Source of the DNA: Prorocentrum cordatum
Taxonomy: Eukaryota; Sar; Dinophyceae; Prorocentrales; Prorocentraceae
NCBI GenBank assembly: GCA_963575745.1
Contig: CAUYUJ010020768.1
Span: 31,001-95,000 of the forward strand
DNA length: 64,000 nucleotides
Reading direction: 5' to 3'
Notes under the pieces: generated by a model
Database searches by the model: none
What the model was told of the DNA's origin: nothing
The model's input: only the letters and a program-made list of their open reading frames with translations
In this document: piece after piece, positions 7,555 through 45,316 of the stretch
How positions within the stretch are numbered: the stretch's first letter is position 1
Layout: each line of letters begins with the position of its first letter
Position numbers and translations under genes: made by a program

Positions 7555-8040
7555 GGCAGAGCTTACCTCCTGCTCAGCCTGGCCTCACCGCTGGGGTCCC
7601 CCTCGTCTCGAGCTGCATTGTGCAGAAAGGAGTCTTTGGTTCCTCATACTGTACACGGTGCTTCAGTGTCTGTTTTGCCTGAGTACCGTACACGTTCATT
7701 GATTGTCGGAGTGCGCATTGACTGTTCAGATTGTCGGAGTACCGTGCGCTTTCATTGAGTGTCGAAGGCCTGTGCACATTCTTTGTGGTAGCCTACGAGT
7801 ACCGTACACACTCATTCTTTGCTTGACTCAGATTCCCGCACGCGTGCTGCAGAGTGTCTTTTGCCTGAGTACCGTACACACTCTTTGGAGGTCGAGTTTG
7901 ACATCTGTTCAACACTCTTGTGAGGACATCTGTTCGACACGACGACAGATTCTAAGCGTTCGCGTGAGGACATCAATTTCTTGGAACAGTGGGGGTTTCC
8001 AGAGGAGCTCAAGTATTCGAACACCGTCACCTTCGCAGCG
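7555..8040 (+). promoter_or_regulatory. 5' leader of element 1 with likely trans-splice acceptor
   Basis: The first ~110 bp (GCTTACCTCC...TACACGGTG) recur at 33412 and, more diverged, at 55135 and 35385, so they are a conserved element 5' end. A pyrimidine-rich run TCCCCCTCGTCTCG precedes an AG at 7611-7612. In the copy at 57557 everything upstream of that AG is replaced by spliced-leader sequence, which marks this AG as a trans-splice acceptor (inference). Then follow degenerate ~22 bp repeats of the CATTGATTGTCGGAGTACC type (about 7697-7880). No core promoter is recognised. Confidence 0.6.
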
Positions 8041-9117
8041 ATGTCTCAGCAACACCCAGCAGGTGCGCCCTGTTGTAAGAAGAGTAAGGCTGTGGGTGAG
8101 GATGAGGATATGATTCAGGCAAGCAGTGAGGAGGAGGAGCAGTTCGGCGAATTTGATGACGGCAATCCTATGAAGCAACAGTTTGCTATGATGAAGGCTA
8201 TGCTAGCTAAACAGAACACTCAGAAGAAAAGAATTTCACGGATTGAGCAGGATGTGAAACGGATCGACCAGCGTGGTGAGAAGAATGAGGCTGACATTGC
8301 TGCTATGCAGCAGCAGATCCGCTCGCTTCAGCAGAAGGGTCCACCCAGTGATGCAGGATCAGGGTCCACGGATGCTTGGAGTAACTATGCGGGCCCTGCG
8401 GGCTCCTCTGCTACGGCCACTGCTCCCAGGTATGGTAATCGTACGCCAATTCGCGAATGGAATCGAGTGCGGGAGGATTTTACACCGACCTTCATCCAAC
8501 TCACAGGTTGGGCGCGAGGTGGAGTCGGCAATCTCAAGACTCGTTCATCGGATATGCTCTCCTGGGATCATGCCCTGCCTGTCATTCGTAAATTTGTCCG
8601 TGGCACAGGAAAGATGACTGAGGAGCATTTCGACATGAGTAGGATCGAGCGGGAGCACAAAAATAAACCATATGGTCTTTATCGTATACGATTCTATGTT
8701 ATAAGTGGCAAGTTGACGAACGATGAAATTTGGGAGATACGCAACTCTTGGGCCGTCGAGCTTGAGAATGACACGCACGACTTGAAGCAAGTCACTCCCA
8801 TCCTGGCCAACAAGCGTCTCGGCGTATCCTGTGAACCAGCACCCTGGAAGCAGCCACATGTTTCTGCCGTGGGTCGTTGTCAAGCTATCTTTGCTACTCT
8901 CAGGAGTGGATCCCAGTGGCTGAAGGGTGAGATGGGTCCTCCTGTCAGCTATGTGTGGGGCTACCCTTCGGCCACGACGCCGAAGACGGATGGAGTATGC
9001 ATTGCCGTGTTTGATCCTAACTTGGGGTGGAAGGTTGACGCCGAGCTGCTGCGTAAGGTCGATGACAAGTTGGATTGCGAGGTCTTTCTGGCCAAGCTCA
9101 ACTTTCGTACCTGGTGA
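8041..9117 (+). CDS. Element 1 ORF1 protein (LINE ORF1, nucleic-acid chaperone-like)
   Basis: Probable RNA-binding partner of the ORF2 enzyme. The start is set at ATG 8041 (MSQQHPAG); an in-frame ATG at 7981 would add 20 residues and cannot be excluded. Length is 358 aa. An acidic N-terminus (about residues 20-40) is followed by a Lys/Gln-rich coiled-coil-like stretch (about 45-100, MKQQFAMMKAMLAKQN onward), a Ser/Gly/Ala linker, and a C-terminal domain from about 140. That domain has FIQLTGW and the motif EPAPWKQPHVSAVGRC, whose core APWK..H..A.G is repeated in the ORF1s of elements 3 and B despite low overall identity. No zinc knuckle is seen. The TGA at 9115-9117 is in frame with ORF2. The family role is inferred from position and the coiled coil; the C-terminal domain is not one I recognise. 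Confidence 0.75.
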   Translation: MSQQHPAGAPCCKKSKAVGEDEDMIQASSEEEEQFGEFDDGNPMKQQFAMMKAMLAKQNTQKKRISRIEQDVKRIDQRGEKNEADIAAMQQQIRSLQQKGPPSDAGSGSTDAWSNYAGPAGSSATATAPRYGNRTPIREWNRVREDFTPTFIQLTGWARGGVGNLKTRSSDMLSWDHALPVIRKFVRGTGKMTEEHFDMSRIEREHKNKPYGLYRIRFYVISGKLTNDEIWEIRNSWAVELENDTHDLKQVTPILANKRLGVSCEPAPWKQPHVSAVGRCQAIFATLRSGSQWLKGEMGPPVSYVWGYPSATTPKTDGVCIAVFDPNLGWKVDAELLRKVDDKLDCEVFLAKLNFRTW

Positions 9118-12100
9118 AGGTGCCATGGCGCCATCGTGGGCACGTATAACGTGAGGCGCTGTGGCAGCATGAACAGCCACGACATGCTTGCTCAGATCAA
9201 GACCTCGAATTCGGAAGTTCTCGCTTTGCAGGAGTGCCAGTTCCTTGGAATAGGTAGGTGCTCTGAGCATGGTTTCACCTTAACTCTTTCTAATGATGGG
9301 AAGGCCGGGGTTCTCTACAAGAGGGTGTGGAGAGCCTCCATACGTGAATGCATCAGGGGTAATCGTTATGTCATTCTCGTGTTTCAATCGTTGATTGTTG
9401 CCAGCTTGTACTTACCACATGCGCCGAAAAAAGGGGATCACAATATCTTATTCACACAAACATTGCAGTCGTTTCGAAAGGATTTGGATACGCTCCGAGT
9501 TAGGTTTCCCAAGGAAGGGTGGGACTTGTTCATCGGGATGGATGCTAACGTTGAGCTTCTGCCTCACACGGTATTTGGAGATGTTGCTTTGACTGGTTCT
9601 GCAGTGCAGGGTGAGAGATTTGAAGAAGGGGACAATGCAGGAGGAGGTGGACGTGGAGGTTTCCAGCAGGGTAGGAGGAGGATGCAACAATACATGTGTG
9701 ACGAGCTCTGTGAATGTATGTGGCATTATGATTTGGTTTTCTCGAATTCTTTTGGGACCCGTCGTACGACCTGGAAGGCCAGGGAGGAGACGGAGGAGGA
9801 GGACAAGGTTCTTGATTACCTGTGTATTCCGAGCTCCTGGGAAAGGCCTCAGTGGGAGGTGTCGTGGTTAAGGCCAACACTCAGGGGCTCCGTGGACCCC
9901 AGAAAGACCCGCCTGTCGGACCATGCCCTGCTCACCTTGCTTGTCCCCGAATCGGCCGCTCCGACTCGACGTTGGAGAACGAAGCCACGACAAACGTTCA
10001 CTCATTGGTGCTGCGACGAAGCCTCGGAATTGCAAGTTTCGGCTAACCTTGATCGTCGTTTGCATGCTGCAGCTCGTTACCCATCTGGTCTCTGCCCGGA
10101 TGAATTGGCTCCTGTTATCTTGAATGCATGTACACAGGACAAGGAGTCATACACCAATGTCCCAAAGAAAATGCAGATCCCCAAAAAGACAGATCGTCAT
10201 AAGGAACTTGATGATGAATATCGCCGACTGCGTCGTGAAGGAGGGGAGGAGGAGGAGCTCATCAGGGTTAAGAAAGAGAGAAGGAAGGAGATGCGTGCAC
10301 ACACTCGTCGTCGACTCGAATACGATCATCGTGACGGGAAGCTCGCTCGGACGGTGGTGGACAAATTGAGTTATGACGATGTGCTCACGGAGGATAGGGA
10401 GTTGTGGGAGAAGGCGCTCTATGCTCACGGGTTCGCCAAGTACCACTGTGCTGCGCAAGGGATACGTAACGTGGAGTGTATCGAGGAGAGGAGGAGGAGG
10501 AGGTTGCAGGACACGAACACAGTGGACGTCTCCCCCATTTCCATGTCCGTATTGTTACAGGCACGATCACGCTTAAAGTGTGGTAAGGCGGTGGGTAAGG
10601 ACGGAGTTTCTCCTTCTATGTTGAAACGTATCACGTGGGTAGGTTTGCGTCATATTCTTCGGTTATTCCAAGACCTGTATCTTCAACGGTATCCTACTCC
10701 TCGGATTTGGTCTGAGTTGCTTGTGGTGTTGATGCCGAAAGCTAAAGATATCACTAAGTTGTCTGATACTCGTGCTCTCGTCTTACTTAGCAGCCTAAGC
10801 AAATGGTATACTTCATGTTTGGTTGAGATTGCTGAAGGTTATCTGAAAAGGGTCCCACAATATCTACATAACTACGGATTTTGCAAGGGAAGGCGCACGC
10901 ACGAGATCACTGCCATGCTTAAGCATGCCACCACACACGCTCTGGAGTGGGGGAAAGATGAGACCCTGCACCTCGCGTCATTAGATGTGCAGACTGCCTT
11001 TGATAACGTCACGGTTGAGAAGGCCAGTCGGGCCTTGGATGCCATCCCTGGGTTCCCCAATGACCTTGCGTTGGCGCTACTCGCTCCCAGTATCCTGGAC
11101 ACAGCGGACTTTACCTTTCAGGACTCCACGGCGACGGGTATTCCCTGGGATGCATGTGTACGTACTGGTAGTGTGGAGGCCCCCTTCCTGTGGAAGTGTG
11201 TGACACTACTGATGTGGGATAGGATTGTACTGAATTGGGAGGAGGAGAAGTTGGGGTACGATTTGGGGGTGGAGGCTGGTGGGAGGTATCTTACTCATGC
11301 GCTCTGGGCCGATAACATTTTGCTTTTCTCGAAATCAAAGACTGAGCTCACACGTATGGTGGGGGACTTCTCGGCTCAGCTGTATACGCACGGTTTCAGA
11401 TGGAAAGATTCCTCACTACACTATCTTGCCTTTGGGGAGGACTCTGAAGGCGCCTCGACGGGGAACCTCGTTGTCCAGGTGAACGATCTCGGTACCCTGT
11501 GTCTTCCGCGATGCTCTGAAATGGAGTGCCTGGGTTGCCTGGTCACGACCAAGACTGACAAACACCATGATGTGGCTTGGAAATTGGCTCGGGGTTGGAA
11601 GCGATTTAACCAGTTCCGCAAGTTTTATACGAATCGTGCTGTACCCTTCCAGAAGAAAATCAAGCATTATGAATCTAGGTTGCGTAGTTTTGTACTTTTC
11701 GGTGTTGAAGGCATGCCAGCGGACCACCACACTTTGAAACAGTTGCACACGTGGGAAGGTAAAATATTGTGTTCTATGGTACGCCGCCCGAAACCTGCCG
11801 ACATGGATTGGAGTATATACTTATGCAACTTGTACAAACGTGGGCGGCGTATGCTCCTGGAATTGGGACGGCCGTCTCTTGTGCAGCTATTCTTGTTTCG
11901 TCAGTGGCAGTGGGCTCAGGACTGTACGTTTACTGTGAAACGCCTGAACCCAACACCCGCACAGATTCCTCCAGGTACTTTTGATTCTTCAGGCAAGCCT
12001 GGCCCCAACGTCTTTGCTGCGTGTGAGCCACCGCCGGCCAAGAGACAACGTCAGGATGAACCCATGTATGTGCTACCAAGTATTGCGTGCTCGACATCAA

Positions 12101-13296
12101 TGGGATGTCATCCTGACGTGTGTGAGACGATGCATGCTGTTGATTCCTTTGAGCTCCCTGGTTCTCAGACACAATTACCCGCGCATCGGCGCAATCTGAT
12201 TTCCCAGATGCATAAGCGTGCAAAGACATTCCATCCATCTCAGGATTCTCTGTCGCAAAAGCGTTCCTCTGTTGAGTTGCCGTCGCAGGAAATCGCTGCA
12301 AACAAGCGGCGACGGGTGGCTCCACCTCAGCATCGTAGTACAGGGGACTCGCATATGCAGGCTAGAGAATGTATTTTTGCATGGTCGGGGGAGTGGACTG
12401 ACCGACGGCAGGCCTTCATTGCATCGCTGCCTTGGAAAGAACGCCCATTAATGACGCGTCGGCATGAGGGGGGGAGACCACTGGCGTTGAGAAACTTCCA
12501 TTACATTTTCGAGTTGGTATCAGGGAAGGATTGGTATCACACGTTATCCTTTTCACGTCAGGGATGGAAAGAATTTCTGAAGCGGGCACTGGATGTTACT
12601 AACATGGAGGAGGCGTGGGGGTACTGTTACTTTAAACATGCACAACCTGCGGGATATGCTAGGGAGGAGGAGGAGAGGGAGAAGACGGAGGAGCAGCAAA
12701 GGAAGGAGGACGAGAAGATGGAGAAACGACTTGCGTACATTAATGAACATGCATCGGAGTGGAATGCGGAGCCTCGGGACTCGATACCGATGGAATTGAT
12801 TGGGGACTCCGCCACAGGGGTGAATTGGATTAACGGTCTCTGGGCAACATCCAATATTATCTACAAGCACATTCTTGGCGACATTCAAAATAGGCTGGAG
12901 CATATCTCTGTGTTGTATGGTATGAGGCCTCCGAGTTGGGGCCACAATATGTTCAGGTGGATCTATCGAGAAGGAAACGAAAGAGCTGACAGGCTGACAT
13001 GGTTGGCCAGAACCAAAAATAGTTACGTTACGTTCCATACCTCACTTATTGAACATGCGAGTAAAACAAAACTAGACGGCCTCCGTGGATTCTTCGACGG
13101 AGGTCGCTCTGTGGAGGGATGTGCTGCAGGATGGTGTATAGATTTGTGTGTACACGGGACGTGGCAGTTGGTGGCGGAGGAAGCTGTCTCGCTTGATGCC
13201 TCTGCTTCTGTCATGTTTTGTGAGATGATTGCAGCACAACGGCTCTGTATGGCCGTGGAGCACATTTTGGGTAGCATCTTTCATCCAAGCAGCTGA
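9118..13296 (+). CDS. Element 1 ORF2: APE endonuclease, reverse transcriptase, permuted RNase H
   Basis: Enzyme of target-primed reverse transcription: it nicks the target, copies element RNA and may degrade the RNA strand. The frame is open for 1392 codons directly after the ORF1 TGA; the first ATG (9169) lies after the catalytic Asn motif, so read-through is likely. Order (numbered from GTG 9136): endonuclease about 1-280 (GTYNVRR, LQECQ, MDAN, SDHAL); RT about 470-780 with LMPK, motif A LASLDVQTAFD (D617, D623), a motif B-like VRTGSVEAPF, and motif C HALWADN (D726, then Asn where Asp is usual); a low-complexity linker about 940-1060; SGEWTDRR region about 1078; RNase H about 1210-1386. There GDS (D1224) and REGNERAD (D1285) come before FDGG (D1321) and CEMIAA (E1363), the reverse half-order of normal RNase H. 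No Cys/His finger is seen. Confidence 0.88.
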   Translation, partial: RCHGAIVGTYNVRRCGSMNSHDMLAQIKTSNSEVLALQECQFLGIGRCSEHGFTLTLSNDGKAGVLYKRVWRASIRECIRGNRYVILVFQSLIVASLYLPHAPKKGDHNILFTQTLQSFRKDLDTLRVRFPKEGWDLFIGMDANVELLPHTVFGDVALTGSAVQGERFEEGDNAGGGGRGGFQQGRRRMQQYMCDELCECMWHYDLVFSNSFGTRRTTWKAREETEEEDKVLDYLCIPSSWERPQWEVSWLRPTLRGSVDPRKTRLSDHALLTLLVPESAAPTRRWRTKPRQTFTHWCCDEASELQVSANLDRRLHAAARYPSGLCPDELAPVILNACTQDKESYTNVPKKMQIPKKTDRHKELDDEYRRLRREGGEEEELIRVKKERRKEMRAHTRRRLEYDHRDGKLARTVVDKLSYDDVLTEDRELWEKALYAHGFAKYHCAAQGIRNVECIEERRRRRLQDTNTVDVSPISMSVLLQARSRLKCGKAVGKDGVSPSMLKRITWVGLRHILRLFQDLYLQRYPTPRIWSELLVVLMPKAKDITKLSDTRALVLLSSLSKWYTSCLVEIAEGYLKRVPQYLHNYGFCKGRRTHEITAMLKHATTHALEWGKDETLHLASLDVQTAFDNVTVEKASRALDAIPGFPNDLALALLAPSILDTADFTFQDSTATGIPWDACVRTGSVEAPFLWKCVTLLMWDRIVLNWEEEKLGYDLGVEAGGRYLTHALWADNILLFSKSKTELTRMVGDFSAQLYTHGFRWKDSSLHYLAFGEDSEGASTGNLVVQVNDLGTLCLPRCSEMECLGCLVTTKTDKHHDVAWKLARGWKRFNQFRKFYTNRAVPFQKKIKHYESRLRSFVLFGVEGMPADHHTLKQLHTWEGKILCSMVRRPKPADMDWSIYLCNLYKRGRRMLLELGRPSLVQLFLFRQWQWAQDCTFTVKRLNPTPAQIPPGTFDSSGKPGPNVFAACEPPPAKRQRQDEPMYVLPSIACSTSMGCHPDVCETMHAVDSFELPGSQTQLPAHRRNLISQMHKRAKTFHPSQDSLSQKRSSVELPSQEIAANKRRRVAPPQHRSTGDSHMQARECIFAWSGEWTDRRQAFIASLPWKERPLMTRRHEGGRPLALRNFHYIFELVSGKDWYHTLSFSRQGWKEFLKRALDVTNMEEAWGYCYFKHAQPAGYAREEEEREKTEEQQRKEDEKMEKRLAYINEHASEWNAEPRDSIPMELIGDSATGVNWINGLWATSNIIYKHILGDIQNRLEHISVLYGMRPPSWGHNMFRWIYREGNERADRLTWLARTKNSYVTFHTSLIEHASKTKLDGLRGFFDGGRSVEGCAAGWCIDLCVHGTWQLVAEEAVSLDASASVMFCEMIAAQRLCMAVEHILGSIFHPSS

Positions 13297-19361: not shown

Positions 19362-21290
19362 TTTTCCCGTGATATTCGATCCCATCCCCGCTCGCCGTCT
19401 TGATCTCAGGTCGATCGGCTAGATATTAATGTGAAAAAGCACTGCGGCGGGATCGGCTGTTTCGGGTCATCTTGACACGCGGTGACGGGTTTCTTAAGAT
19501 AACTCGAGCTATAGAAGAGCTTCAGAGCTGGTACTTACAGAAACCGATTCAGAATTACCAGGTGCGTTTGTCTGCAGAATCCAGAGGTCTGAACTCGGTC
19601 TGCTGCCCGAGCTAGGTCCGCGAAACTATTTGTATTGTTCGAGTCATCTTGAGAGGTGCCGTCGGCTTAATTCGGGCTCTTGGGGGGCTACAGGGATGGT
19701 AATCACAGGAACGGGTTTGGAGACATCAGGCGCGGGAGCCTGTCACATGCAGAGGACTGAACTCGCTCTTCTACTCGAGCTAGGTCCGGAAAACTATTTG
19801 TATCACTCGAGTCATTTCAAGGGAGACTGTCGGATTTCTGTACTTTACTCGAGCTCTAGGGTAGATACAGAGCTGATACGCACAGAACCCGATGCAGACT
19901 GATCAGGCGCGTTCATCTGCTGCATCCAGAGGTCTCAACTCGGTCTGCTACTCGAGCTAGGTCTGCGAAACTGTTCGTATTATTCGGGTCTTCTTGAGAG
20001 GTGCTGTCGGTTTTTGCACGTAACTCGGGATGTCGGAGAGCCACAGAGCTAGTACGCACAGAAAACGATCCAGAAGCATCAGGAACGTTTGCCTGTTGCA
20101 TCGAGAGGTCTGAACTTGGTCTGCTATCCGAGCTAGATTCAGAAAATTATTCGTATTCGACCGATTTTTTTCCAAATGATGGTGAATTTCTTCACGGAAG
20201 TCGAGCAGCCGAAAGCTTAGAAGAAAATCGTGAGGCGTGAAGCATCTAGACGCCTGGTTTGAGTCTGTTGTGAACGCAGACGCCAAAAACGGATTCGCAC
20301 TCTGCTACTTCCTTCCAGCACAGCAATGAGATGTCACTAGACGCCTGAAATCAATCTGCTATCAGCTCGGGCTTAAAAACTATTCGTTGTCTGCTTTTTT
20401 GCGGACACAATATATGGTCAGGAAGCTCTACGAGTCCCCCGGCGGCAAGAAAGGTTGACGATTTACCGCCGGCGCCCAGTTGGCCGACCCGACCAGAAGA
20501 GACAATGTGACAACTTTGGGTCGGTTTTGCAAATATTTCAAAGATATTTGACAATTCATTTGGAGAGCGGGTATTTTTCCCACGTGTAGTGGGTTATGCC
20601 GCGTCTGCCAGTTAATTTCTCAGGTCTGTAGCTGCACTAGTACTATCAAAACACTTGAGGGAACCGTCGGCCGTTTCGAGTCATCTTGACACGCGTGGAC
20701 GGCTTTCTGTATTCAACTGGAGATTTAGGACAGCTACAGAGGTGATACTTACAGAAACCAATTCAGAATCATCAGGCGCGTTCGTCTGTTGCGTCCAGAG
20801 GCCTGACCTCGGTCTGCTACTCGAGCTAGGGCCGTCAAAGTATTACTGTTATTCGAGACGTCTTGACCAGTGATGTCGGTTTTCTGTACTGAACTCAAGA
20901 TTCAAAGGAGCTACAGAACTGATACGCACATAAACCGATTGAATATCGCCAGACGCGTGCGTCTCTTGCATCGGGAGGCCTGAACTCGTTCTGCTACTTG
21001 AGCTAGGTTCCCAACACCATTCGTATTTCTTAAGTTCTCTTTGGGAGCGCTGTCGGTATTCTGCGCTTAACTCAAGCTGTAGCACAGCTACAGAGCTGGT
21101 GCGCACAGAAACCGTTACATAATCATCAAGGGCGTTTGGCTGAAGCGCCCAGAGCTCTGGACAGAGTCTGCTCCTCGAGCTAAGTGCGCGCAACTATTTC
21201 TATGCGACTGATTTTATTGAGTTGTTTGGCTCTCGCTTCAGCCTGCTTCGCGTGTTCGTGGAGCTGGGCAAGAAAAGAGCACTACGAGGT
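19362..21290 (+). repeat. ~177 bp monomers and hairpin units upstream of element 2
   Basis: Monomers with GAGTCATCTTGACACGCG, AACTCGAGCT and AGGTCTGAACTCGGTCTGC run from 19460 to about 20220 and from 20670 to about 21210. They are separated by an ATGATGGTGAATTTCTTCAC type segment and a hairpin unit (hairpin about 20438-20470). The last ~60 bp are a unit 3' end that breaks off at GAGCACTACGAGGTCC, joined to truncated element 2. No gene. Confidence 0.8.
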
Positions 21291-24200
21291 CCTTCCAACG
21301 CAGCTGTGGCGGGAGCTACAACCAACGGAGGGCGTGCGGGAGGGGCTCCAGTAGGTCAGGTCAGTCCTGGAGGTCAAGGATCTGGAGGCGCTCCTGTTGT
21401 TCCTAGAGGCCCAGCTCCACAAGGTGCTCTAGGGGGACCCCCAGGTATGCCCACGGAGGCACAACAGGCGGCGGCCCAAGCGGCTGTTGTCCCTGAAGGT
21501 GCTGGGGAGCGTCAGGGTATGCAGGGTGTTAGCGACGACGCCCAACGAAATGTCAAACATCGTGTCAACGGTCCTCACGAGGCACTCTTGGGAGAACTCG
21601 AGGAGAAGCGAAAGAAACTCAGTGTGGTCTCGGACGAGGCCCCATCCTGGTTCAAGGCCTTCGCGGAGCTCAACGTGCTTGAGAGCAAAGTTAGGCAACA
21701 AGAAAACGTCGAAATCAGGGCCGATATTCAGAGCATCTCGAATCGTCAGGAGGCCTCCGACATCAGGATGAACAACTTGGAACGACAGATGCAGGATCTC
21801 AAGAAGAACCCCAGTGTGATATCAGGTGCAGCCTCGACTACGGCACCTTCTCACGGAGGGGGCCCACCAGGCCTCTCAGGACCCTCCAGTTTCAGTCCCA
21901 GCTATGTGGAGCTCACAGATACGCCAGATCCTAGCCGCCAGGTGGCCGCACTTCGTGCACCTGTGAGGCCGGAACGTCTATGGACGCTCGAACGGCTGTT
22001 ACGGCGTGCTCTGTGGCCCAGAGAACTTCGATGCCAGAATGAAGTCAGGAGTCTTCGGAGATTGATCAAACCACTGCGAAAACAATATGATGCCGACATG
22101 CTCGAATACAAACACAAAGTTGAACAGCGTAAATTACGTACACAAGCACAGGCACTTAAAGTCAAAAAGATGACGGGGGAGTGGGAACTTACTTACGATG
22201 TCGAGGCCAAACAGGTGGAAATTGGGAGGTACTTGAAAGACAGGGTGGAGGACTACGGGGCGAGGAGGGAGGTGCAGTCTATTCTGGAAGGTCTGGCATC
22301 GAAGCTCAACCAGTCCCAGTGCGTGAGCATCACCATGCATGACATCTTGCGAGCGAGGGCTCGCCTCAAGAGTGGGGCGGCTGGACCTGACCAAGTGACG
22401 CGGGAGATGCTGCAGCTCATCCCCTTTGCCAGCCTCAAGACAATCAGACATCATTTCAGCCTGATCGCCAATCGTCGTCAACAGGTCCCCTCGGATTGGA
22501 AGAGGTTTCTGGTAACTCTCATCCCGAAGGCGCCGTCCATCCAGGAGCTTTCAGAGACTAGGGCGATCTGCCTCCTGAGCCTGGTCCAGAAGTGGTGCAA
22601 CCATGTCCTAGTCATTAAAGGGGAACAACATCTGGTGAATATCAAACACTCTCTTAACATGTATGGGTTTGTGCAGTTCAGGAAGGTCTCTGAGGTCACA
22701 TCGTTTACCAAACATCTTTGCCAACATGCTGCACAATGGGGAAAAGGGGAGAAGCTCTATCTGGCCAGCCTCGATGTACTCCAGGCGTTTGACCACGTTA
22801 CTATCAAGCTTGCGTTACAAAGTATGGAGAAGCTTGGTTTTGACCCCGCTTTGATTTATGCCCTTCTTTGCCCTATGACCGAAAACACGTGTAAAGCCAC
22901 CTTCGAAGGGACCCAGAATTTGGATTGGATTGGTTGGGATCGGAGTATCAGGACGGGCGGGGTGGACGGACCATTCATATTCAAAGTGGTGAGTGTGGCC
23001 TTGTGGAATGATATCGTCGGGACCTGGCCAGGGCGTGATCTGGGTTACGTAGTCGAGTCCCCCGTCCCCATGCCCACTAGATCGACGATTTCACATGCCC
23101 TCTGGGCAGACAATTTGTTGCTGTACGCCAGAGATGAACGGCAGCTCAGGACCATGGTGACTGAGCTCACTCTCCCACTGCTCCAGGCCGGCCTCAATTG
23201 GAAACCATCCTCTCTCAAGCTCATCCCCTTTGGCGTCAATGGCTCGAATGATGTAGTTCTTGATATTCAGTTGCCCACACAGACCCACACGTATAAACTT
23301 GAGTGCGTTAACACTTTGGACATCCTGGGTTACAGGTTGGACAGATCTTGGACACAGCATAGCGATCTGCAGTTCAACTTGGATCGTGCCCGTGGTGCCT
23401 TCTTTGCCGACATCGAATATTATAGAAGTCATCGCATCCCGATTGGGAGACGATTCCAACGATACCGACTCCGTATCCAGAGTAAGCTACTTTTCGCAAT
23501 CGAAGGGATGACGATTGACAACATCACGGCACAAAAAATATTCTCCTGGGAAGGAAAGCTATTAGCCATCATCGGAGGAAGGAGGAAAGGAGTGACTGAA
23601 GATTGGACGGTCTACCAAAAGAGGAGGTTCAAGTTTGCACGCGACCAGTTCGCCAACCATGGATTTCTGTCGGCGGTGGAACTCTTCATTCACAAGAACT
23701 GGCTCTGGGCGAAAGATATCGCTTTCTTTGCCAGAGGCTTTGCGTGTCAAAATATCCCGACAGCTGCGCTGCACACGGACAGGGTACATGCTGATCCGAC
23801 AGCTTCGCTGCACACGTACAGTCAGGCTCATACACATGTCCATTCGTCTTTGCCTGTACCTCAGTTGTTTGGCCAACGTTCTTTGGAGTCCACGCCCAGC
23901 TTTATTCAGACAGCTACGCTGCACACTCACAGTGATGATACAACACATGCCCATTCTTTGTTGCCTGCGCCGCAGGTTGATGACTTTTCTTTCGACACGT
24001 TGCCCAGCTATATTCAGACAGCTACGCTGCACACGAACAGTGGAGAGCACACACACCCTCGTTCGATGTCTTCCGTGCCGCAGGCTGAGAGAGGAAGTTC
24101 TTTCGATCAGTTGCCTTGTTATGTTCCGACAGCTACGCTGCACACACACAGTACACACTTTATTCATTCTCATTGTCCGCCCCGTGCTTTGCCTCAGAGT

Positions 24201-24869
24201 GTTTCGCCTGAGCCCCAGAGACCTGCGGCTATGTTTGGTAGCCGTGGGGGACTGACTGAGCACAAAAAAGATTGTCAACGTTCTTCTGGTCGTGTGTCGT
24301 CTGCGTCCAGTATAAGAGTTCCTTTGGAGCCGAACAAAAAGGATGCTCATTGTTCTTCTGGTCGTGTGTCGTCTGCGTCCAGAATAAGAGTTCCTTTGAG
24401 TGATCCGCTGCAGGTGGCGCATCTGTTTGAGTGCGCCAGGCTCCTGGAAGAAAGGAGCAGGCAGCGCGAATCCCAAGGCACTGTCAGTCCTGCGGCCACA
24501 GCCCCCCCAGTTGACGGCGAGAGCGAACCCACGCCCGCGGCCAAGAATCGTCGCAGGCAGACTGTGGAGACCCGTCTGGCCGCCAGGGGAGAGAAGCGGT
24601 GCCCTGGCCCGAGTCTCACTGCGAGCCAGGAGGAGCTCGCCAAGCGTGTCAGACAGCCCCAGCGCCCATGCGACAAAAGAGATCGGGATGAAATATGTTC
24701 GCCGAGGGGCAGTCAAAAGAGACGGTGTATTGCTCATGTGAATGATGACCCCATCGCTTCCGCCGATAGTCTGTCTGCTGCCCCACAGGGAAGTAAGCGA
24801 CCACGGGACCCCCCTCTTCTAATCATGATAGTGAGCCGCGAGAGGCACGACCCTCTGGCGCAAACGTGA
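21291..24869 (+). pseudogene. Element 2 ORF1-RT fusion ORF lacking the endonuclease
   Basis: One open frame of about 1190 codons; reading is also open upstream to 21222 through flanking repeat. Residues about 1-205 are the ORF1 Gly/Pro/Ala-rich N-terminus and coiled coil (ENVEIRADIQSISNRQEAS). At SYVELT near 21920 the homology jumps from the ORF1 C-terminal domain to the pre-RT linker, a deletion of roughly 2 kb compared with element 3. The RT is complete: LIPKAP, motif A LASLDVLQAFDHV (second Asp at 22791), motif B-like IRTGGVDGPFIF, motif C SHALWADN (Asp 23109). A linker with repeated PTASLHTYS / TATLHTHS elements follows (about 23760-24170). It stops at TGA 24867, with the RNase H part in the -1 frame. 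Without an endonuclease it cannot be autonomous; the open frame may reflect recent origin. Confidence 0.8.
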
Positions 24870-25819
24870 ATGCCTTCAAACTCAACGCCTACTCTCAGGC
24901 GCGGTTGGGCATGATGCATGCGTCAGGTGACTGGTCCGCTCATCGTCGCGCGTTCGCTGCACGCTCGAGGGATTCTCAGGCTGCTCTTCTTGGATGGCGT
25001 GGTGGTACTAAATACGTCGGTTGGAGAAAATGGGAAGATGTCTTCATTGCGGATCAAAATGGCAATACTAAGTGGTGGGAGACTATGATGTTTGGGAAAG
25101 AAGATTGGTCGATTTTCGTTGAGAAGTTGCTCAAAAGATTGCACCTGCCCGCCATTCTTGACTATCTGGCCAAACCTAGAGTTTCGGTTGCCCGTACGGA
25201 GGAGGAGGAGACGAAAGTTAACAATGATAGGATTGCGCGTCGCATTGCTCATAACTTTGAAAATGAGACTATCTTTGACTATGAGTCGGATAAGATTCCA
25301 TTTGAAATACTGGGTGACAGCTTGTGTGTTGTCCAATGGATAAGAGGGCACTGGAGGTGCACGAACATGGGCTATAATAACACCTTGGAGGCGGCACAAA
25401 ACACTCTTGATGCTATAACGGACACCTGCTTGAGAACTGCGTGTGCGGGGGCTGACCCAATCAAACATCTTTATAGGGAGGGTAACAGTTATGCTGACGA
25501 ACTCACGTGGGCTTGCAGAGCTTGCCCACACACATCGAAGAGAAACGAGTATCTTGCCCCTTTATATACTTCGAAAGTTTTAGGATTGAGGGGTTCCTTC
25601 GACGGAGGCACCTCGGATATTGGGGCTGGGGGAGGCTGGTGGCTGCAGGCTTTTGTAGAACATAAAAATGCTATACAGTGTCACGTGATTGCCGAGGAGG
25701 CGTTTGGCCTCGATAGGGAGTCAACCGTGACGGTCTGTGAGTTAACGGCCGCCTCGAAGCTAATTCACGCAATCTCGCAGATTGCGTCTGTTATAGATAG
25801 CGTCTCACACGCTCGGTAG
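24866..25819 (+). pseudogene. Element 2 C-terminal part with permuted RNase H domain
   Basis: 317 codons in the -1 frame relative to the RT part; GTG 24866 overlaps the RT stop TGA. There is no ATG at the start, and the frame is open further upstream, so a frameshift in a C-run near 24806-24815 is the simple explanation. N-terminal ASGDWSAHRRAF matches SGEWTDRR of element 1. The RNase H half-domains are swapped: GDS (Asp 25316), W-x4-W, REGNSYADELT (Asp 25496), then SFDGGTSDIGAGGGWWLQ (Asp 25601), AEEAFGL and CELTAAS (Glu 25739). All four catalytic acids are kept. The Asp-Asp and Asp-Glu distances (60 and 46 residues) are near those of normal RNase H. Confidence 0.82.
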
Positions 25820-25894
25820 AGCCACTTGCGCCTGGTGGCCGCGGGGAGCACCGCTGCTTGCATGTGCTGGAGGACCCCACCGCAAAGCCCGCAA

Positions 25895-26484
25895 AAATAC
25901 TGGGTGAGAGCTTGTGTGTTGTCCAATGGATAAGAGGGCACTGGAGGTGCACGAACATGGGCTATAACAACACCTTGGAGGCGGCACAAAACACTCTTGA
26001 TGCTATAACGGACACCTGCTTGAGAACTGCGTGTGCGGGGGCTGACCCGATCAAACATCTTTATAGGGAGGGTAACAGTTATGCTGATGAACTCACGTGG
26101 GCTTGCAGAGCTTGCCCACACACATCGAAGAGAAACGAGTATCTTGCCCCTTTATATACTTCGAAAGTTTTAGGATTGAGGGGTTCCTTCGACGGAGGCA
26201 CCTCGGATATTGGGGCTGGGGGAGGCTGGTGGCTGCAGGCTTTTGTAGAACATCAAAATGCTATACAGTGTCACGTGATTGCCGAGGAGGCGTTTGGCCT
26301 CGATAGGGAGTCAACCGTGACGGTCTGTGAGTTAACGGCCGCCTCGAAGCTAATTCACGCAATCTCGCAGATTGCGTCTGTTATAGATAGCGTCTCACAC
26401 GCTCGGTAGAGCCACTTGCGCCTGGTGGCCGCGGGGAGCACCGCTGCTTGCATGTGCTGGAGGGCCCCACCGCAAAGCCCGCAA
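25895..26484 (+). repeat. 590-bp tandem copy of the element 2 3' end
   Basis: Near-identical to 25305-25894 (a few substitutions, e.g. GACAGC to GAGAGC, which changes the GDS Asp to Glu, and CATAAAAAT to CATCAAAAT). It starts at AAATACTGGGTGAG exactly where the first copy ends in CCCGCAAA, and ends in the same 3' UTR terminus. It carries a second RNase H domain from ILGESLCVVQWIRG to the stop at 26407-26409. Either an unequal duplication or a 590-nt 5'-truncated retrocopy landing at the 3' end of the first explains it. Confidence 0.85.
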
Positions 26485-26486
26485 AA

Positions 26487-27035
26487 ACCTGGTTGACGGT
26501 TTACCGCCGGTTCCCAGTTGGACGCTGCCAAGTGGATTTGAAAGATATTTGACAATTCATTTTGAGAAAGCAGATTTTCACGTCGAGCATTGGCATATAA
26601 AATTCATTACCAGAGCAGCCCAGTTCTCTAGAGCCAGTTGTACTATCGAACAATTAAGAGAAGCATCAGAGTGACACCGAAAAATGTAAAGTTAACGTTT
26701 TTCGAGAAATGCTCGGAGAAGCTGTCTGCTTCGAGTCTGAGCACTTTATTGCGTGCAAGGAGCTCTACGAGGTTCCCGGCGGTGACGAGGTTGACGGTTC
26801 ACCGCCGGCGCCAGTTGCACGCTACCAAGTGATGACCTGGGGTCGGTTTTCCTTAGATTCGAAAGATATTTGACTATTTTTTTTTGAGAAACCAGATTTT
26901 CCGCACCTGTAGTGGGTTATTCCGCGTTTGCCAGTCAAATTCTCAGGTCCGTAGGTGCAGTATTACTTCCAAAACACTTGGAGGAACCGACGTTGGATAA
27001 AAACAGAAAAACGTGATTTTCGAGTTTTTTCTTTC
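26487..27035 (+). repeat. Hairpin-unit repeats between elements 2 and 3
   Basis: Right half of the hairpin carrying element 2, then a unit with TGACAATTCATTTTGAGAAAG, a second hairpin at about 26777-26809 (GGTGA paired with TCACC), and part of another unit up to TTTTTTCTTTC, where element 3 begins. No gene. Confidence 0.75.
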
Positions 27036-28754: not shown

Positions 28755-31743
28755 CGGTGCAGAGGTGCCAGTCGGGCTGGTGGCCCCACAGCCCAGCATA
28801 GGCTAGGCACCCAGAACCTTATGAAACAAGGGGCTACAGCAGATCGGGGATTTGCTTGCATGAGGGCACTTCTTTCTCACGGCTGTGAAGTGTTCTGTTT
28901 ACAGGATTGTGAACACTTACCGTCCAATTCAATCCAGCTGCTTGGCTGGCATCTAGTTTACTCAAGTGACAGGAAGGCTTCCATAGCTTTGAGGGGGAAG
29001 TCTTGTCACAACGTAGTTCGCTCTTGGTGTAATCATGCTCGTCTTGCTATTGTGTGCTTGCGTCATCCGTGTATCTTTCTTGTCTCTGCGTACTTTCCGA
29101 CCAGATCGGAGAAACGTTCACTGGAGGTGGCTTTTGAGATGCTGAAAGCAATCGAAACAACTTATCGGAGGTGGAAGGAGGAGTGCAGATACACATGTGA
29201 GCCTGTGATTGCAGGGGATTTTAATGTGGAGGTTGCGCCCGACATCACCTGTTCAGGTGGCACGGTGACTGGAGGTGCTGTGCAGATTCTTGGCGGGAGG
29301 GGATATGGGAATGATACGGAGGATAGACGGTGGGAGGAGGACATGTGGAGATCTCAGCTGCAGGAGTGGCTGTGTCGGATGCGCTTGCTGGCAATCAATT
29401 CTCTCGGCTCGCCGTACTCTCGGCAGCCGACTTTCGTGCGTCGTGCGAACAATGCTCGACGCAAGTCTGGGGCGAAGACTATTGCGCCAAAAGTGCTTGA
29501 CTAGCTCATGGTCCCACAATCCGGGGAGGGCGACTTGGGTGAATGCCGAACGGATTGGATCCCAGAGACCCCGACTACCAACTTCTCGGATCATGCCTGT
29601 GTCTACGCCGAGTTCCATATGCAGAACCCTCAGGTCACGAAATATCAAGGCCCCCCTAGCCACCACACGAGCCACAAAGAGTTCCAATCGTAGCGGGAGG
29701 AGGCCCAGTTTCAGGTCCTGGCGGACGCCCAGATCCCGACGGTGCCCCCACAACGTCTTGCTGAAACGATTGCTGGACATGCGTTGCCGCTCCTCACGGT
29801 GAGGCCCCCCAGGTACTCTCGAGGGCTCCCGGCAAGTAGGACTCCCCAGCGTGCCGACCTGGAGGTACAACTCAGAGAGGCACGTGCTAGGAAGGACAGA
29901 GCGTTGGCTCGGGACCTTCGACGCCGTATCAGACCGCTTGCGCGGGAATATCGCCGACGGAAGGTGGAGTGGGAGGCGTTGCCATCTAGGAAGGGGAGGA
30001 GGACACGTGTGCCGGAGTTGAGGGTGACGGACACTGGGGGAGGGGATATGGAGCCTACGACTATGATGACGGAGGACAGGGACCTGTGGGCGGAGGAGGT
30101 GGAGCGATATGCTGTGCAGAGTATGACTTGTGATGACTCCAGAGCCCGCAATCGGGGGCTTGTGTCCACACTGCGTCGCCATGCATCTCAATCTACAGCC
30201 TCTTGTGACAACGCACTTACGATTACATACTCTATTATTCTGCAGGCGCGGGGCAGGCTCCGAACAGGACGGGCCTGTGGGCCCGACGGCATCTCGGTTG
30301 AGCTTCTCAAGTCTGTTTCGTGGCGGTCAGTTCGTGCTATTGATAAGGTGTTCTCTGATATATTCAATGGGCTTCGCCCGACGCCAAGGGAAGGGCAGGA
30401 GGTATACCTAACACTTATGCCGAAAACGAGCAAACTAGAAACACTGCGACAAACAAGGAACCTGCTCGTCGGAAATACCTTGGCCAAGTGGTATCTTACG
30501 CGTGACGATCTTACTGGAACGATGTGTGGAACCCTTCATGAGTGATATGGCGGTTTACGGTTTTACTAGCGGACGACGTTGCTGGGAGATTTCATCGGCC
30601 ATGAAGTGTATTGCACAACATGCTTCCACATGGGGGCGAGATCAAACGGCGTGGCTCCTCAGCTGTGACATTGAGCGGGCGTTCGATGCTGTGACGCTGC
30701 CGACAGTCTCGAGAGCGATGGCGGCCCTTGGGATCAGTGCACGGCTACAGTATGCGTTATTGGAGCCTCTCTCATCCACTTCATGCACGGTGCTGTTTGA
30801 AGGAGTGACAATCCCCAATGTGCAGTGGGATAGATCGCTCCGTACTGGTGGTACCGAATCACCTATCGCGTTCACTATTGTCACTTTTGCTATGTGGCGT
30901 GATGTGATTGCCCGCCTGGACCAGCGCGGTGTCGGAGTTGAGATGCCATGCCATGATGATCATTGTCGGTATGCACGCTGGAATCATGCTCTCTGGGCTG
31001 GCAATATTTTTCTCGCCGCCAAGTCAGCATCGGAGGCGCAGGAGGCGGCCACTGCCTTCACTACTGCTCTCAGGGAGTGGGGGATGGAGTGGGAGGAGGA
31101 GAGTCTAGAGATGATGGTGAGTGGTACTCAGTACACTGATACGGTCACGGTTCAGATTGGCTCGCGGACTGTACCTTTCAAGCATGTTGAGAGTTTGAAT
31201 GTGCCGGGGTATCAGATTCCCAGAAGTTTCACTTCTATCCACGCGGATGTGCAGGAGCGCCTCCAGCAGGCCCGAAGGGCATTCTTTGCGCAGGTGCAGT
31301 ATTTTACGTGCAAGGCGTTGCCTCTGGTGAAGAAGTTTCGTCGATACCAATCGACTGTGCAGAGCCGTCTTTTATATGCAGCAGAGGCCATCACGATTGA
31401 CAGTGAGTGTGTGAGGGTTATCCACGCGTTCGAGGGTATGTGTCTTCTGAGAATGTCAGGGGGGAGGAAGCCAGGAGATGTGGGGTGGGAGGTATGGCGG
31501 CCAGCTGCACTGACACGAGTCAGGTCAATCTTCTGCGATGGGGGTTTCCCGTTGGCTGTGCAGGTGCTTTGCTGGAACAGCTGGGGCATGCTGCGCTCCA
31601 CGAGACAGTGCCTACTATCTTTGGAGGAGGACAGGACGGCAAGGACGGAGGTAGAGGTGGAGGGATCAACGACTCAATGTGTTAAACGTGTTCGCTTTGC
31701 GGATGGACGGGGGGGGGGGGGGGTGCACCTGCAGCGACTGTGA
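28755..31743 (+). pseudogene. Element 3 ORF2, endonuclease and reverse transcriptase part
   Basis: Endonuclease: LGTQNL just before the first ATG (28821), CLQDCEHL (Asp where Glu is usual), SAYFP, AGDFNVEV, then KVLD with TAG (29502) where element 1 has KVLDYL, and FSDHACVY. A second in-frame TAG is at 29691. The RT continues in the same frame to about 30500, then needs +1 (the downstream frame opens near 30502): LMPKTS, SCDIERAFDAV (motif A), LRTGGTESPIAF (motif B-like), NHALWAGN (motif C, Asp 726 equivalent replaced by Gly at 31000). A poly-G run precedes TGA 31741. With motif C lost this copy is dead as an enzyme. Confidence 0.82.
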
Positions 31744-33030
31744 TGGAGGTGGGGGGGGGGGATTACGGATATGGAGAGGCGGCTGGAGGATCTTTGCTCA
31801 CAGGTTGCCCGTTCCATTGCCCGCTCACAGCCGATGCCCTCTGGAGAGGGAGCTGCCCACACTCTCAGAGACGAGCCACTTGCCGTCCCAGAGGGGAGGA
31901 GGGCCTTTCGAGACTCCCAACGTGCGTCTATGATGTACAATGTTGGCTGGGTCGCGGCTTGCGACGCAATGCCAGAGGTTTCACGACGACGCGGCAACAG
32001 GGCTTTATCTAGTTCGGGCAAACGGCTTCGTGGAGGCCCTGTGTCTGTGAGCGGTCGGTCTTGGCAATTCCCTTACATTCAGTTCTTTGGGGAAAAGTGG
32101 TGGGAGTCTGTGCGGGGCGATTGGGTTCAGTTCTTGGAGGTCTGGAAGCAACTCCTTACACAATGCAACAAAGCTAAGGTCTATGATTACTTTGTGGTGT
32201 CTTGGAAGGGCTCTCCTAATGGACCTCGAGGCTCCCCTGAGGCTCATGAGAAGGCCGATGCTGAGACGGCCCACATCGCGACCAACCCCCTGCGCCCCAA
32301 GTATGACCCCAAAGAGTCCGCCAAGCTTGCACTACGTTATGCTATGATCCAGGAACGTGCGACGGTGTGGAATATATCCTCAGAAGGTTTTGCTGTTGAG
32401 TTCAAGGGTTATTCATTACTTATCTGCTCCTGGCTGCAGGGGAAATGGAGATGTGAGAATCGTGGCTACTGCAAGAGGACAGCTGCCATGATTGATTGTA
32501 CCTTTGAGCTCGCTGCGTGTTTCAATCTGAGGCCTGCTGCCTTGGGGCGTGATACATGGAGACATGAATTCAGGGAGGGCAATGCACGCGCGGATGAATT
32601 GACGCATGAGGCCAGATGTGGCCGCACATTCTACATAACTCGATGTTATCTATTTCCATTTGAAACTTATCTCTTACCGTTCGCTATCAGGGGAGGCTTT
32701 GATGGCGGGGTTGACCAGCAAGGATCAGGATGTGGTTTCTGGCTTCAGATCGGCTTAATCAATACTCAGTGTAATCCCAGGGAGATAGGCATCGCTTCCG
32801 CGAGAACCGTGGGCCCCTTCCCTGCTGGGCATGAGTTTGCTGTTTCTAGTGCCGTTCTCCTCGTTTGGAGGGATGCGGCCGAGGCCGCGTGGCTCCTTGA
32901 TGGTGCTACGGTCGCAGAATGTGAATTGTCGGCAGCCGAAGCGCTGCTCAGCGCTGCCCGTGTGCTCCTGCGGGACCTGTTCTCGCCCAGCTGCACTCAG
33001 CTGGGAATTCGAGTCCAAACAAACAAACAA
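31744..33030 (+). pseudogene. Element 3 permuted RNase H part
   Basis: Same frame as the RT after the in-frame TGA at 31741. EKWWESVRGDWVQFLEVW matches the pre-RNase H region of the other copies. Half-domain order is again swapped: FKGYSLLICSW (Asp of GDS replaced by Tyr at 32410), REGNARADELT (Asp 32593), then GGFDGGVDQQGSGCGFWLQ (Asp 32701) and ATVAECELSAAEAL (Glu 32933). An insertion of about 20 residues lies between the last two motifs. The open frame runs out of the element into flanking repeat. Non-functional by loss of one catalytic acid. Confidence 0.78.
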
Positions 33031-37095: not shown

Positions 37096-40000
37096 CGACG
37101 AGAGGTCCGTCTAGGCTCGTGGAACCTACGACGGAGAGGACAATTTATTATCCACACAATACTTAGTGCGATGAAAGGGGCGGATGTGACACTCCTGGGG
37201 GTACAAGAGTGTCAAAATCTGTGGGATCATCGTTCTGAGCTGTCAGGTTCGGGTGAAGGTGCTATTCACGCGATTTTTGACAGCTTCGGCAAGGTTGCCA
37301 TCCTGTATAAGGATAATTGGCGGAAGCACCGCCTTGCTACGTTCAAGGGGAAAGGTTACGTTGCCACAGGATTTACGACGGTCACGGTTGTTTCATGCTG
37401 TTTGCCCAATGCTGAGGATGTGACGTTGAAGAGTGATGACATTACGAATGAGAAGTTCCAGAACATCATATATAATATGAATGAGGCCCTGGAGAAGTAT
37501 TTCCACAGGTACCCTAGGAGGCCCCAGAAGGTGGTGTTGCTCACGGATGCCAACGTGGAGCTGTCGCCAGATACGAGCTGTAACGGTCTACAACTTACGG
37601 GGGAGGGATTGCTGGAATCAACTCTGGTCTACTCGGGCGGGGCATCGCGTGTGCGTTGGAGGGGGAGGGAGGCAATGAAGGAGGCGCTTCTTCAGTTCTG
37701 TGGGAGGTGGAGGATTGTGATGGCCAACGCATTTGGACCCAGGAGGCTTACTTGGATCCCGTTGGGTCTTGGGGCTCCCAGTGTCTTGGACTATATTGGG
37801 TTACCCGGTGCACTGTCGGAGGTGGGGTTAAATTCATCCAACCACTGGGGACGACGGCACTGACTGCGGTATCGGATCATGCTCTGTTACATGCCACGTT
37901 ACCATGTGCTCCGACGGGTGTACGCAGACAGAAGCCGAAGGCGACGAGGGCTTCCAATTTGGTCCACTGGGCTCCCGAGGATCCTCAGGCTTACGCTCGG
38001 GAGGCGGAGATTGCTTTCACCACATGCGGGACAATTCCTGTCAGGTCTGCTGCCACGACGCCCGAGGAGGGCTGGGAGCTGGTCAGCCGTTCCCATCCTC
38101 GTGTGGCGCGTCAGCTTAGGACCGTGGTGGAGGAGGAGGGTAACAGCACGGACAGTACGGAGACTATGATGGAGGACATGGAGGAGTGGGAGGAGGTGGA
38201 GGATGTGACGACACAGTGCGTTCAGGCGGTGGGATCACCCTCTTGTGAAGGCGAATTCATCAATACGGCGATTGTGTCGGCGGCCAGTCTCACACCTCAT
38301 GCACAGGGACGACAGGTCCAACGTCCCAAGAAGCCAGAGGAGTTGTGGAGGATGGAGGAGGACATGAAACAGCTCAGGAGGGAGAGGAGGTGGGAGGACT
38401 GCAAACAGTTACGACGGCGGTACCGACCTGCGAAGAGAAGGTAGCAGGCTGAACTGGTCAGATTTCAATTTACCAGGGAAGGACGGAGTAAACGTACACA
38501 CAATCAGGTACTGGAGGTGGTTCAGGAGGACGGTCGTATTCATAGATCTGGGGACTTGGAGGAGTGGGAGGCGGAGATCGGACGGTTTGCTTGTGCCACT
38601 ATTCAATGCGAGGGGGCTCACAGGGCTAGTGCACAGACGTTGGAGACGGCGAGGTGTGCAGCAGCGGCCTCGCATCGGACGCTTGACATTCGCGTGTCCC
38701 TTGTGTTGCGAGCTCTCGCACGACTCAAGAGGGGGGGGGCAGCGTCATGCGATGACGTGTCGCCCGAAATGCTCAAGTTGCTTCCTTGGGCGTGTGTGCG
38801 CCGTGTACGTGACTTCTTTCAGCGCCTGGCCTGTCGGGAGAATCTCACGCCGCAGTGCTGGAGAAATTTCCTTGTCACTCTGATCCCGAAGAGCCCCCAC
38901 ATGACCCAACTCAAAGACACTAGGAACATATGCCTCATACCTCTCATGTCCAAATGATACAGCCTGTGTCTCACTATACTTGCGGAGGAAGAGTTGACAA
39001 AGCTCCGACCTCATACGTGCTTGTTCGGCTTTGCGGCAGGTAGGAAACCACATGCAATTACGGCGGTACTTACGAGGCTCTCACAGCACGCGTGTCTCTG
39101 GGGCAAAGGGGAATCATTATATCTTGGGAGTGCAGACGTACTACAGTGCTTCGACCATGTGACGTTGACATTGGCGTATAACAGTCTGGTACCATTGGGG
39201 TTCCCCTCGGAGCTTATATTTGCCCTCTTGGAGCCCATGCATGAGAACGTGTGTCAGATGTCCTTTGAAGGTGTGCGGTGGACGGATTGGGTGTCTTGGG
39301 ATAGGAGTATCCGCACGGGAGGAGTGGAGAGCCCCTTCTTGTTCAAGGCTGTCTCGGTGTATCTTTGGGAAAAAGGTGGCGCGGCAGTGGGAGGAGAACG
39401 ACTATGGTTATGAATTGGAGACCCCCTTGAGTGGAGGTAGGAGGAGGATTTCGCATGCTCTGTGGGCGGACAACTTGTATGTGTGTGCACGGTCCCTGGA
39501 CGAACTTCGGGAGATGATGTCTATGCTCACGGTGCCGTTGGCTCAGGCGGGCCTGCGGTGGAAACCCTCATCGCTGGGATACCTCTTGTGTGGAGGCTGG
39601 CCTCGCTGTTCTGATGCCGAGCTTCGTGTGTGGGTCCCTGAGTATGGTGAGGAGTTGGTCCTGCCGCGTCTTCGACAGATGTCGGCTCTGGGAGTGGAAC
39701 TCTTTGATGACTGGAGTGAGCATCGGGATCTAATTTGTCATTTACAGCGTGCCAGGCGTGCGTGGATGTGTGATGTACAGTTCTATCGCTGTAGACAGTT
39801 ACCTATGCGTGATCGTTTTATGCGTTACATTGCACGGGTGCAGTCCATTGTGTTGTATGCATGTGAAGGTATGACGGCGGATGAGGGGACTATTCAGAAG
39901 TTATATGCGCGGGAGGGTCAACTGCTGGCGATCATTGGTGGTCTGCGTGAGAAGGCGAGTGAGGATTGGACCGTGTGTACTCAGAGGCGGCTGCGCTATG

Positions 40001-40347
40001 GTCGCCAACACTTTGCTAGGTACGGCTTCCAATCATTGGTCCAAAGATTTCTCAGAAAGCAGTTTGACTGGGCAAAGGATGTGGCATCGTTCGCTTGTAT
40101 GCATACGTGTGCACCTATGTTGGCGCGTGCGCCGGGGGAGGAGGCGCATGCCAATCGGCGTCAGCGTACGAGAATCTTCCGTGAGACGGTGCGGGGCCAA
40201 CGACAGAGGCTCTCGACCACCCAGCCTGGTGCGGCTCCGACGCCTGCACCACCTGTGTCGGATGACGTGCCAAGGCCCTCTGTTCTTTCACGTGTTGCGA
40301 TGCTGCATGGTTTGGGGGAGTGGACGGAGAGGGGGGGGGGGCTATGA
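37096..40347 (+). pseudogene. Element B ORF2, endonuclease and reverse transcriptase part
   Basis: Endonuclease: LGSWNLRRR (Asn 37123), GVQECQNL, CCLPNA, LTDANVEL, VLDYIGLPG, then a frameshift near 37850 before AVSDHALLHA. In-frame stops: TAG 38442 and TGA 38955 (KWY with Trp TGG to TGA). A further frameshift lies at an A5 run near 39370. RT: LIPKSP, FGFAAGRKPHAIT, motif A GSADVLQCFDHV (Asp 39136), motif B-like IRTGGVESPFLF, motif C SHALWADN (Asp 39469, Asn next), then the thumb-like LGVELFDDWSEHRDL region. It ends at TGA 40345, overlapping the ATG of the RNase H frame. Inactive as it stands. Confidence 0.82.
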
Positions 40348-44200: not shown

Positions 44201-44369
44201 ACTTTTTGCTGACTTTTGGTCGGTTGAAAATTTCGTTCTCAAAATTCAACCATTCGTTAGAGCTCCAGTATTTTTGCTGTCATATTCGATCTTATTTCCG
44301 CTCATCGTCTTAATCTCAGCTCGATCGGGTAGATATTACTGCCAAAAAGTGTCCCGGCGGGATTGGCCG

Positions 44370-45245: not shown

Positions 45246-45256
45246 TATTCGACCGA

Positions 45257-45258
45257 CA

Positions 45259-45316
<58 letters not shown>

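Follow-up and report, generated by a model that had tools for sequence, protein, structure and literature searches.

Can the RNase HI domain, a textbook fold, be carried by a retrotransposon with its two halves in reverse order? The question is raised by a 64,000-nucleotide stretch of Prorocentrum cordatum DNA (GenBank assembly GCA_963575745.1, contig CAUYUJ010020768.1, positions 31,001 to 95,000 of the forward strand; hereafter the window, to which all coordinates refer). The window holds several copies of one retrotransposon, probably of the kind without long terminal repeats (non-LTR), a long interspersed nuclear element (LINE). We call these copies elements 1, 2, 2b, 3, B and 5; the ORFs and domains described lie on the + strand, and proteins are referred to by P numbers. 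Our analysis indicates that the C-terminal domain encoded by the second open reading frame (ORF2) of this Prorocentrum LINE is very probably a single archaeal-type RNase H type 1 domain that has been circularly permuted. The preliminary description of the window had already read a permuted RNase H, set against the Escherichia coli enzyme; the permutation is retained here, but the domain is most closely related to RNase HI of the archaeal type, not to that of E. coli.

In element 1 the predicted permuted domain spans about residues 1200-1386 of ORF2 (12733..13293), as delimited by motifs, a structure model and hhalign. It starts with half A (12775..13062), which contains the motifs GDS and REGNERAD and corresponds to strand 4 to helix E, usually the C-terminal half. 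Half B (13063..13293) follows with FDGG and CEMIAA and would correspond to strands 1-3 and helix A, usually the N-terminal half. Reading the residues in frame confirmed this swapped order of four motifs at the ORF end in elements 1, 2, 3 and B, the latter three being 27-35% identical to element 1. The acidic residues are found where they had been placed in element 1 (D1224, D1285, D1321 and E1363, at 12805, 12988, 13096 and 13222) and in element 2 (25316, 25496, 25601 and 25739), whose C-terminal ORF (24866..25819; translation and model) has all four. All four are likewise present in the C-terminal ORF of element B (40320..41291, read in frame) at the positions given for them, 40716, 40899, 41007 and 41172, but the third motif is YDGG instead of FDGG. 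The C-terminal ORF of element 3 (31771..33030, read in frame) has Asp at 32593 and 32701 as described, but its codon at 32410 encodes Tyr (GYS) and its Glu is at 32923, the earlier position 32933 being out of frame; as listed, this ORF continues past about 33030 into a flanking repeat.

Element 5 had been credited with the first half of the domain only. We found half A in one frame (53976..54590; D 54399, D 54582) and also half B, which lies in a different frame and is interrupted by stop codons (54575..54967; D 54686, E 54851), both by tblastn and translation. Copy 2b (25888..26385), a second and truncated copy of the element 2 domain lying beside it, keeps the same motif order with GES for GDS, that is, with the first Asp changed to Glu. 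The linker between the RAD Asp and the FDGG Asp measures 35-36 residues.

Archaeal-type RNase HI (Sulfolobus tokodaii, PDB 2EHG; NCBIfam NF041175 and NF041306; Pfam RVT_3) shares the GDS strand, the helices and the REGN/REEN..AD motif with half A, and the FDG strand with half B. The Arg of REGN is likewise Arg in S. tokodaii RNase HI, whereas E. coli has His at this position. Spacings differ in part: within half A, 60-61 residues separate the two Asp in the six window copies versus 49 in 2EHG, and the Asp and Glu of half B are 42 (element 1), 46 (elements 2 and 2b), 55 (elements B and 5) or 74 (element 3) residues apart versus 45 in the S. tokodaii enzyme. The order of the halves is canonical in S. 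tokodaii RNase HI and reversed here, so we class the domain as a permuted relative instead of an ordinary RNase HI.

Each half was compared by hhalign with a set of archaeal-type RNase HI (61 of 81 sequences, S. tokodaii and loci, covering at least 75% of columns) and a set of bacterial RNase HI (63 distinct sequences from 80 loci). As a control of the method, the bacterial and archaeal-type sets scored 155.8 against each other in natural order and 84-123 when rotated. Half A alone, with five reference rows, scored 61.9-62.9 with the archaeal C-terminal half versus 8.3-8.6 with the N-terminal half. Its match to the former has a probability of 97.4-97.6 and an E-value of 5e-12 to 1.2e-11 over 62 columns (97.6 and 5e-12 for element 1, with nearly the same cut as given above). 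In a separate test with half A alone, none of 40 shuffles reached the observed score. On these profile comparisons half A is firmly assigned as a homolog of the C-terminal half of archaeal-type RNase HI. Half B alone preferred the archaeal N-terminal half, at 18.5-19.6 versus 11.5-14.4 with the C-terminal half (18.5 versus 11.5 for element 1, where the model adds to the assignment), but the match is weak. None of 200 column shuffles reached its score in either of two tests, the best shuffle in one of them being 18.2 versus 19.0. Homology of half B to the N-terminal half of RNase HI is thus supported but not settled.

NCBIfam matched half A to RNase HI models in 3 of 6 proteins (E-values 0.017-0.041) and matched P0014 to PRK07708 (E-value 1.4e-4), all below curated cut-offs. 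Pfam reported no RNase H above cut-off in these proteins, which the permutation, if true, would explain; because of this, such elements may be under-counted in dinoflagellate annotations. Sequence searches of the PDB with the profile of our 12-row alignment A2, with a reordered sequence and with P0012 gave no RNase H domain match up to E-value 10. A match of the A2 profile to 'Ribosomal protein L9/RNase H1' (E-value 0.42) was rejected, as it lies in a charged stretch upstream of the domain.

Structure prediction, to which the preliminary description had looked for a single fold, packs both halves into one domain in the AlphaFold model of element 1 (predicted template modelling score, pTM, 0.84), with half B modelled as three strands and a long helix. 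Two AlphaFold models (pTM 0.84 and 0.57) agree on an order of strands and helices that equals RNase HI opened between helix A and strand 4. In a viral fold library two Pithovirus ribonuclease H models rank 1 and 5 (E-values 0.006 and 0.032), with low template modelling (TM) scores. A fold match to foamy virus was discarded: it is based on nothing but a range, few of its residues align and its Z is low.

A profile search of 5.8 billion proteins, restricted to those with shared short words and fitting length, recovered 11 relatives: four from P. cordatum, two of whose proteins match the element 1 domain at 99 and 100%, four that carry no organism label and three fragments labelled Pyramimonas. 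P0011 and P0015 are named RNase H type-1 domain-containing by one source. A search with the reverse transcriptase (RT) region gave one relative from a separate source, P0020 (1078 amino acids), with an RT 44% identical and a C-terminal end that carries GDS, REGNQRAD, FDGG and AEL in the same order as the window elements. Long proteins searched with the C-terminal region gave none; because this search missed P0020, which was of admitted length and came up only through its RT, it is not sensitive and is silent on absence. Viral contigs searched with A2 gave no relative.

Thirteen sequences cover all four acidic positions, namely elements 1, 2, 2b, 3, B and 5 (two frames) together with P0009-P0014 and P0020; P0011 is nearly identical to element 1 and hence not independent, and the GDS of P0014 and P0020 was read by eye. 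P0015 (three positions only), P0016 (a deletion) and the fragments P0017-P0019 were excluded. D, D, D and E are kept in 10 of the 13, the exceptions being copy 2b (D to E), element 3 (D to Y) and P0009 (E to V). The Glu is accordingly lost in one sequence only, and A2 shows no variation in its 12 rows at the D, G and G of the FDGG motif or at the Arg of REGN. The ratio of nonsynonymous to synonymous substitution rates (dN/dS) between elements B and 5 is 0.24 across 195 codons that cover half A and the region before it, and 0.39 across 131 codons of half B, even though element 5 is broken; between element 2 and copy 2b it is 0.33, on 10 changes only. P0017, P0018 and P0019, labelled Pyramimonas (a green alga; EukProt), are 36-89% identical over short stretches and may reflect dinoflagellate contamination, or transfer.

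A direct comparison is to put the halves back into canonical order, as the preliminary description had suggested, and the outcome was divided. A first profile (12 rows) scored 17.2 against bacterial RNase HI in natural order, over 52 columns, and about 31 when cut at the junction of the halves and reordered; this alignment spanned 120-123 columns and brought the four acidic residues of element 1 into register. Cuts elsewhere scored 19.6-25.6, or about 30.5 with fewer columns where the cut fell within half B, and 100 shuffles peaked at 18.45. The gain vanished with a second profile (10 rows, four references), so that scores alone do not prove permutation. Reordered element 2 nevertheless aligned to the archaeal type through both halves with the four acidic residues in register. 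In NCBIfam all six reordered sequences matched an RNase HI model (E-values 0.0019-0.042), although only the element 2 match spans both halves (profile positions 26-129 of 143), and the natural and reordered sets differ in sequence length and are not a clean pair. Pfam, given five sequences in both orders, found no match in either order for two of them; of two further reordered sequences, P0020 matched RVT_3 at E-value 0.14 and P0014 gave no match.

Several of these results, and some others, weigh against a single permuted domain. The half B match is confined to about 21 columns at strand 1 with a probability of 10-13%, and against bacterial RNase HI half B does not rise above shuffles (10 of 40 and 16 of 40 reach its score). 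The second profile scored 65.0, 64.2, 64.6 and 64.1 with the four references against the archaeal type, the same in both orders, and against the bacterial type it fell from 25.3 to 21.7 for element 1 and stayed at about 25 for the other three. The reordered alignments of element B and P0020 to the archaeal type cover half A only, Pfam RVT_3 gains only 0.7-1.3 bits on reordering in 3 of 5 sequences, below cut-off and in the C-terminal half only, and P0014 matches PRK07708 slightly better in natural order. Strand 5 is modelled poorly, and the element 2 model has an overall predicted local distance difference test (pLDDT) of 64.2 with its pTM of 0.57. Foldseek and VIA rank other folds over any RNase H among the matches listed, the leading PDB chains there being PelC, CinA, the TolB N-terminal domain and HPF; a sequential aligner could give such ranks for a permuted strand-helix-strand-strand-strand-helix fold, and we do not count them for RNase H.

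Two of these points would fit a truncated domain, in which RNase H supplied half A alone, as its C-terminal half, and an unrelated extension rich in strands follows, whose DGG and Glu are there by chance: the half B profile match is weak and local, and the second profile gains next to nothing against archaeal-type RNase HI when the halves are joined. Yet half B favours the N-terminal half of RNase HI, with a score that none of 200 shuffles reached in either test, its D, G, G and Glu are conserved as described above, and its strand-strand-strand-helix unit packs with half A in the model of pTM 0.84, which leaves this explanation improbable. The halves would also stand in this order if two canonical RNase H domains lay in tandem and an assembly error, introns or a frameshift concealed the outer half of each; next to element 2, half B is indeed followed by another half A, but past a stop codon and in another frame. 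The same order recurs in elements 1, 2, 3 and B, at the 27-35% identity to element 1 given above, and in P0020. No DG motif lies within 220 residues before GDS in element 1, and none was seen ahead of GDS in elements 2, 3 and B over the length of their C-terminal ORFs; over this extent the second canonical RNase H upstream, which the preliminary description had named as refuting its reading, did not appear. The element 2 model has no strand of at least 3 residues upstream of the domain, in a part of low confidence. Downstream, the A-rich 3' end comes about 216 bases past the stop in element 1 and about 40 past helix A in element 3, too near for a missing half of about 95 residues to fit. We consider such a tandem pair highly improbable.

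A third explanation sits within the permuted reading, its odds not being exclusive of it: the fold would be permuted and lack nuclease activity, with a structural or nucleic-acid-binding role. The first Asp is indeed replaced in element 3 and copy 2b, and the Glu in P0009. All four acidic residues are present in 10 of 13 sequences, however, including the diverged P0014 and P0020, and element 3 and copy 2b may be dead, since copy 2b is truncated and the RT of element 3 reads WAGN where the others read WADN. A wholly inactive domain is therefore rather unlikely, and the permuted RNase H is probably active in some copies.

If the domain is permuted as we propose, its chain would start at strand 4 with the GDS Asp and run through the helices to helix E with the Arg and Asp of REGNxxAD, from where a linker would lead to strands 1-3 with the FDGG Asp, to helix A with the Glu, and to the end of the ORF. 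The old termini would thus be fused and the new ones would lie between helix A and strand 4, while the acidic residues would meet in a two-metal D-E-D-D site. During target-primed reverse transcription the domain could clear the element RNA, the template, from its hybrid with the first complementary DNA strand. As for its origin, our guess is a tandem duplication of a C-terminal RNase H followed by loss of the outer halves; copies of the region can end up in tandem, as copy 2b beside element 2 illustrates.

RNase HI has been acquired repeatedly by retroelements, and an archaeal-type RNase H was gained by L1 elements of plants and oomycetes, according to PMC5348765. Those non-LTR elements carry the archaeal type as here, in other hosts than a dinoflagellate, and the string 'permut' has 0 occurrences in PMC5348765. 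In the oomycete element Utopia (PMC4640811), RNase H lies upstream of the RT with conserved residues D-E-D-H/R-D; there the whole domain is relocated relative to the RT, whereas here the inner order is changed to D-R-D-D-E. SymbioLINE-Dnmt of Symbiodinium is also a dinoflagellate LINE with unusual domains, its accessory domain being a cytosine methyltransferase, and the consulted portion of PMC5890265 does not mention a permuted RNase H. The string 'permut' has 0 occurrences in a review of the RNase H-like superfamily (PMC3985635), and no permuted RNase H in a retroelement was found in the portions available to us of the open-licence PMC literature.

On balance we incline to a broader claim, that an active permuted archaeal-type RNase H is common to an entire lineage of dinoflagellate LINEs and became fixed before the elements diverged to RTs at most 44% identical. 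This may be the first case of circular permutation in nature that affects the RNase HI fold, and it would change how the nuclease is tethered to the RT. If true, a natural permutant in diverged elements would show that RNase HI can still fold when opened between helix A and strand 4, and folding order and the coupling between RT and RNase H could be tested on a natural example.

Upstream of the domain, element 1 comprises a putative ORF1 of 378 amino acids (7981..9117), taken from the ORF list with its role inferred from position and with no Pfam match above curated cut-off. It is separated by 18 bases from ORF2 of 1386 amino acids (9136..13296), which has apurinic/apyrimidinic-endonuclease-like (APE-like) motifs, an RT (RVT_1, E-value 2.2e-9) and the predicted permuted RNase H. 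The start of the ORF2 product, P0001, reads TYNV, LQE, GMDAN and LSDH, which we take by eye to be the APE-like endonuclease motifs; Pfam gives no match up to E-value 1 in this part. RT ORFs were found in element 2 (21222..24869; RVT_1, E-value 3.5e-8) and element 3 (30502..31743; RVT_1, E-value 1.1e-10), and the later part of an RT in element B (39220..40347; tblastn and translation). RVT_1 is above the Pfam cut-off in elements 1, 2 and 3, and the RT of element B is recognized by similarity to these; elements 2, 3 and B resemble element 1 in both the RT and the C-terminal domain, and element 5 resembles it in the latter. Motif C of the RT, usually Y/FxDD, has its second Asp replaced by Asn in all five proteins read (P0001, P0005, P0006, P0007 and P0020). 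It reads WAGN in element 3 and WADN in the remaining four, from elements 1, 2 and B and P0020.

Elements 1, 2b, 3 and 5 have A-runs at their 3' ends, and no A-rich 3' end was seen at element B. These four A-rich ends (13512, 26487, 33031 and 55003) adjoin CCWGGTYGACGGTTTACCGCC, with two changes at element 5, and the 3' end of element B is without this repeat junction. The sequence GACGGTTTACCGCC, within the repeat GGCGGTAACCTGGTTGACGG, has 30 occurrences in the window with at most one mismatch versus 0.02 expected, and repeat sites at 1193, 5734, 15961, 16708, 42053, 42627, 43398 and others are without an element. At the end of the 5' flank of element 1, at about 7546, stands GGCGGTAAC. The elements thus seem to target a repeat specifically.

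Directly after element 2, 25819-26487 is a second copy of its 3' end, with 10 changes in 166 codons compared; this copy 2b seems to start inside the A-rich tail of element 2 and is perhaps a 5'-truncated insertion at the same site. Downstream of element 5, at about 55127, AGCGGTAACCTGGTTGAGCGG is followed by sequence similar to the 5' end of element 1 (GAGCTTACCTCC...), where another element may start. Self-comparison of the window also revealed, mainly at 1-7500 and 41400-50800, many dispersed or tandem repeats that are about 66-96% alike among the matches listed.
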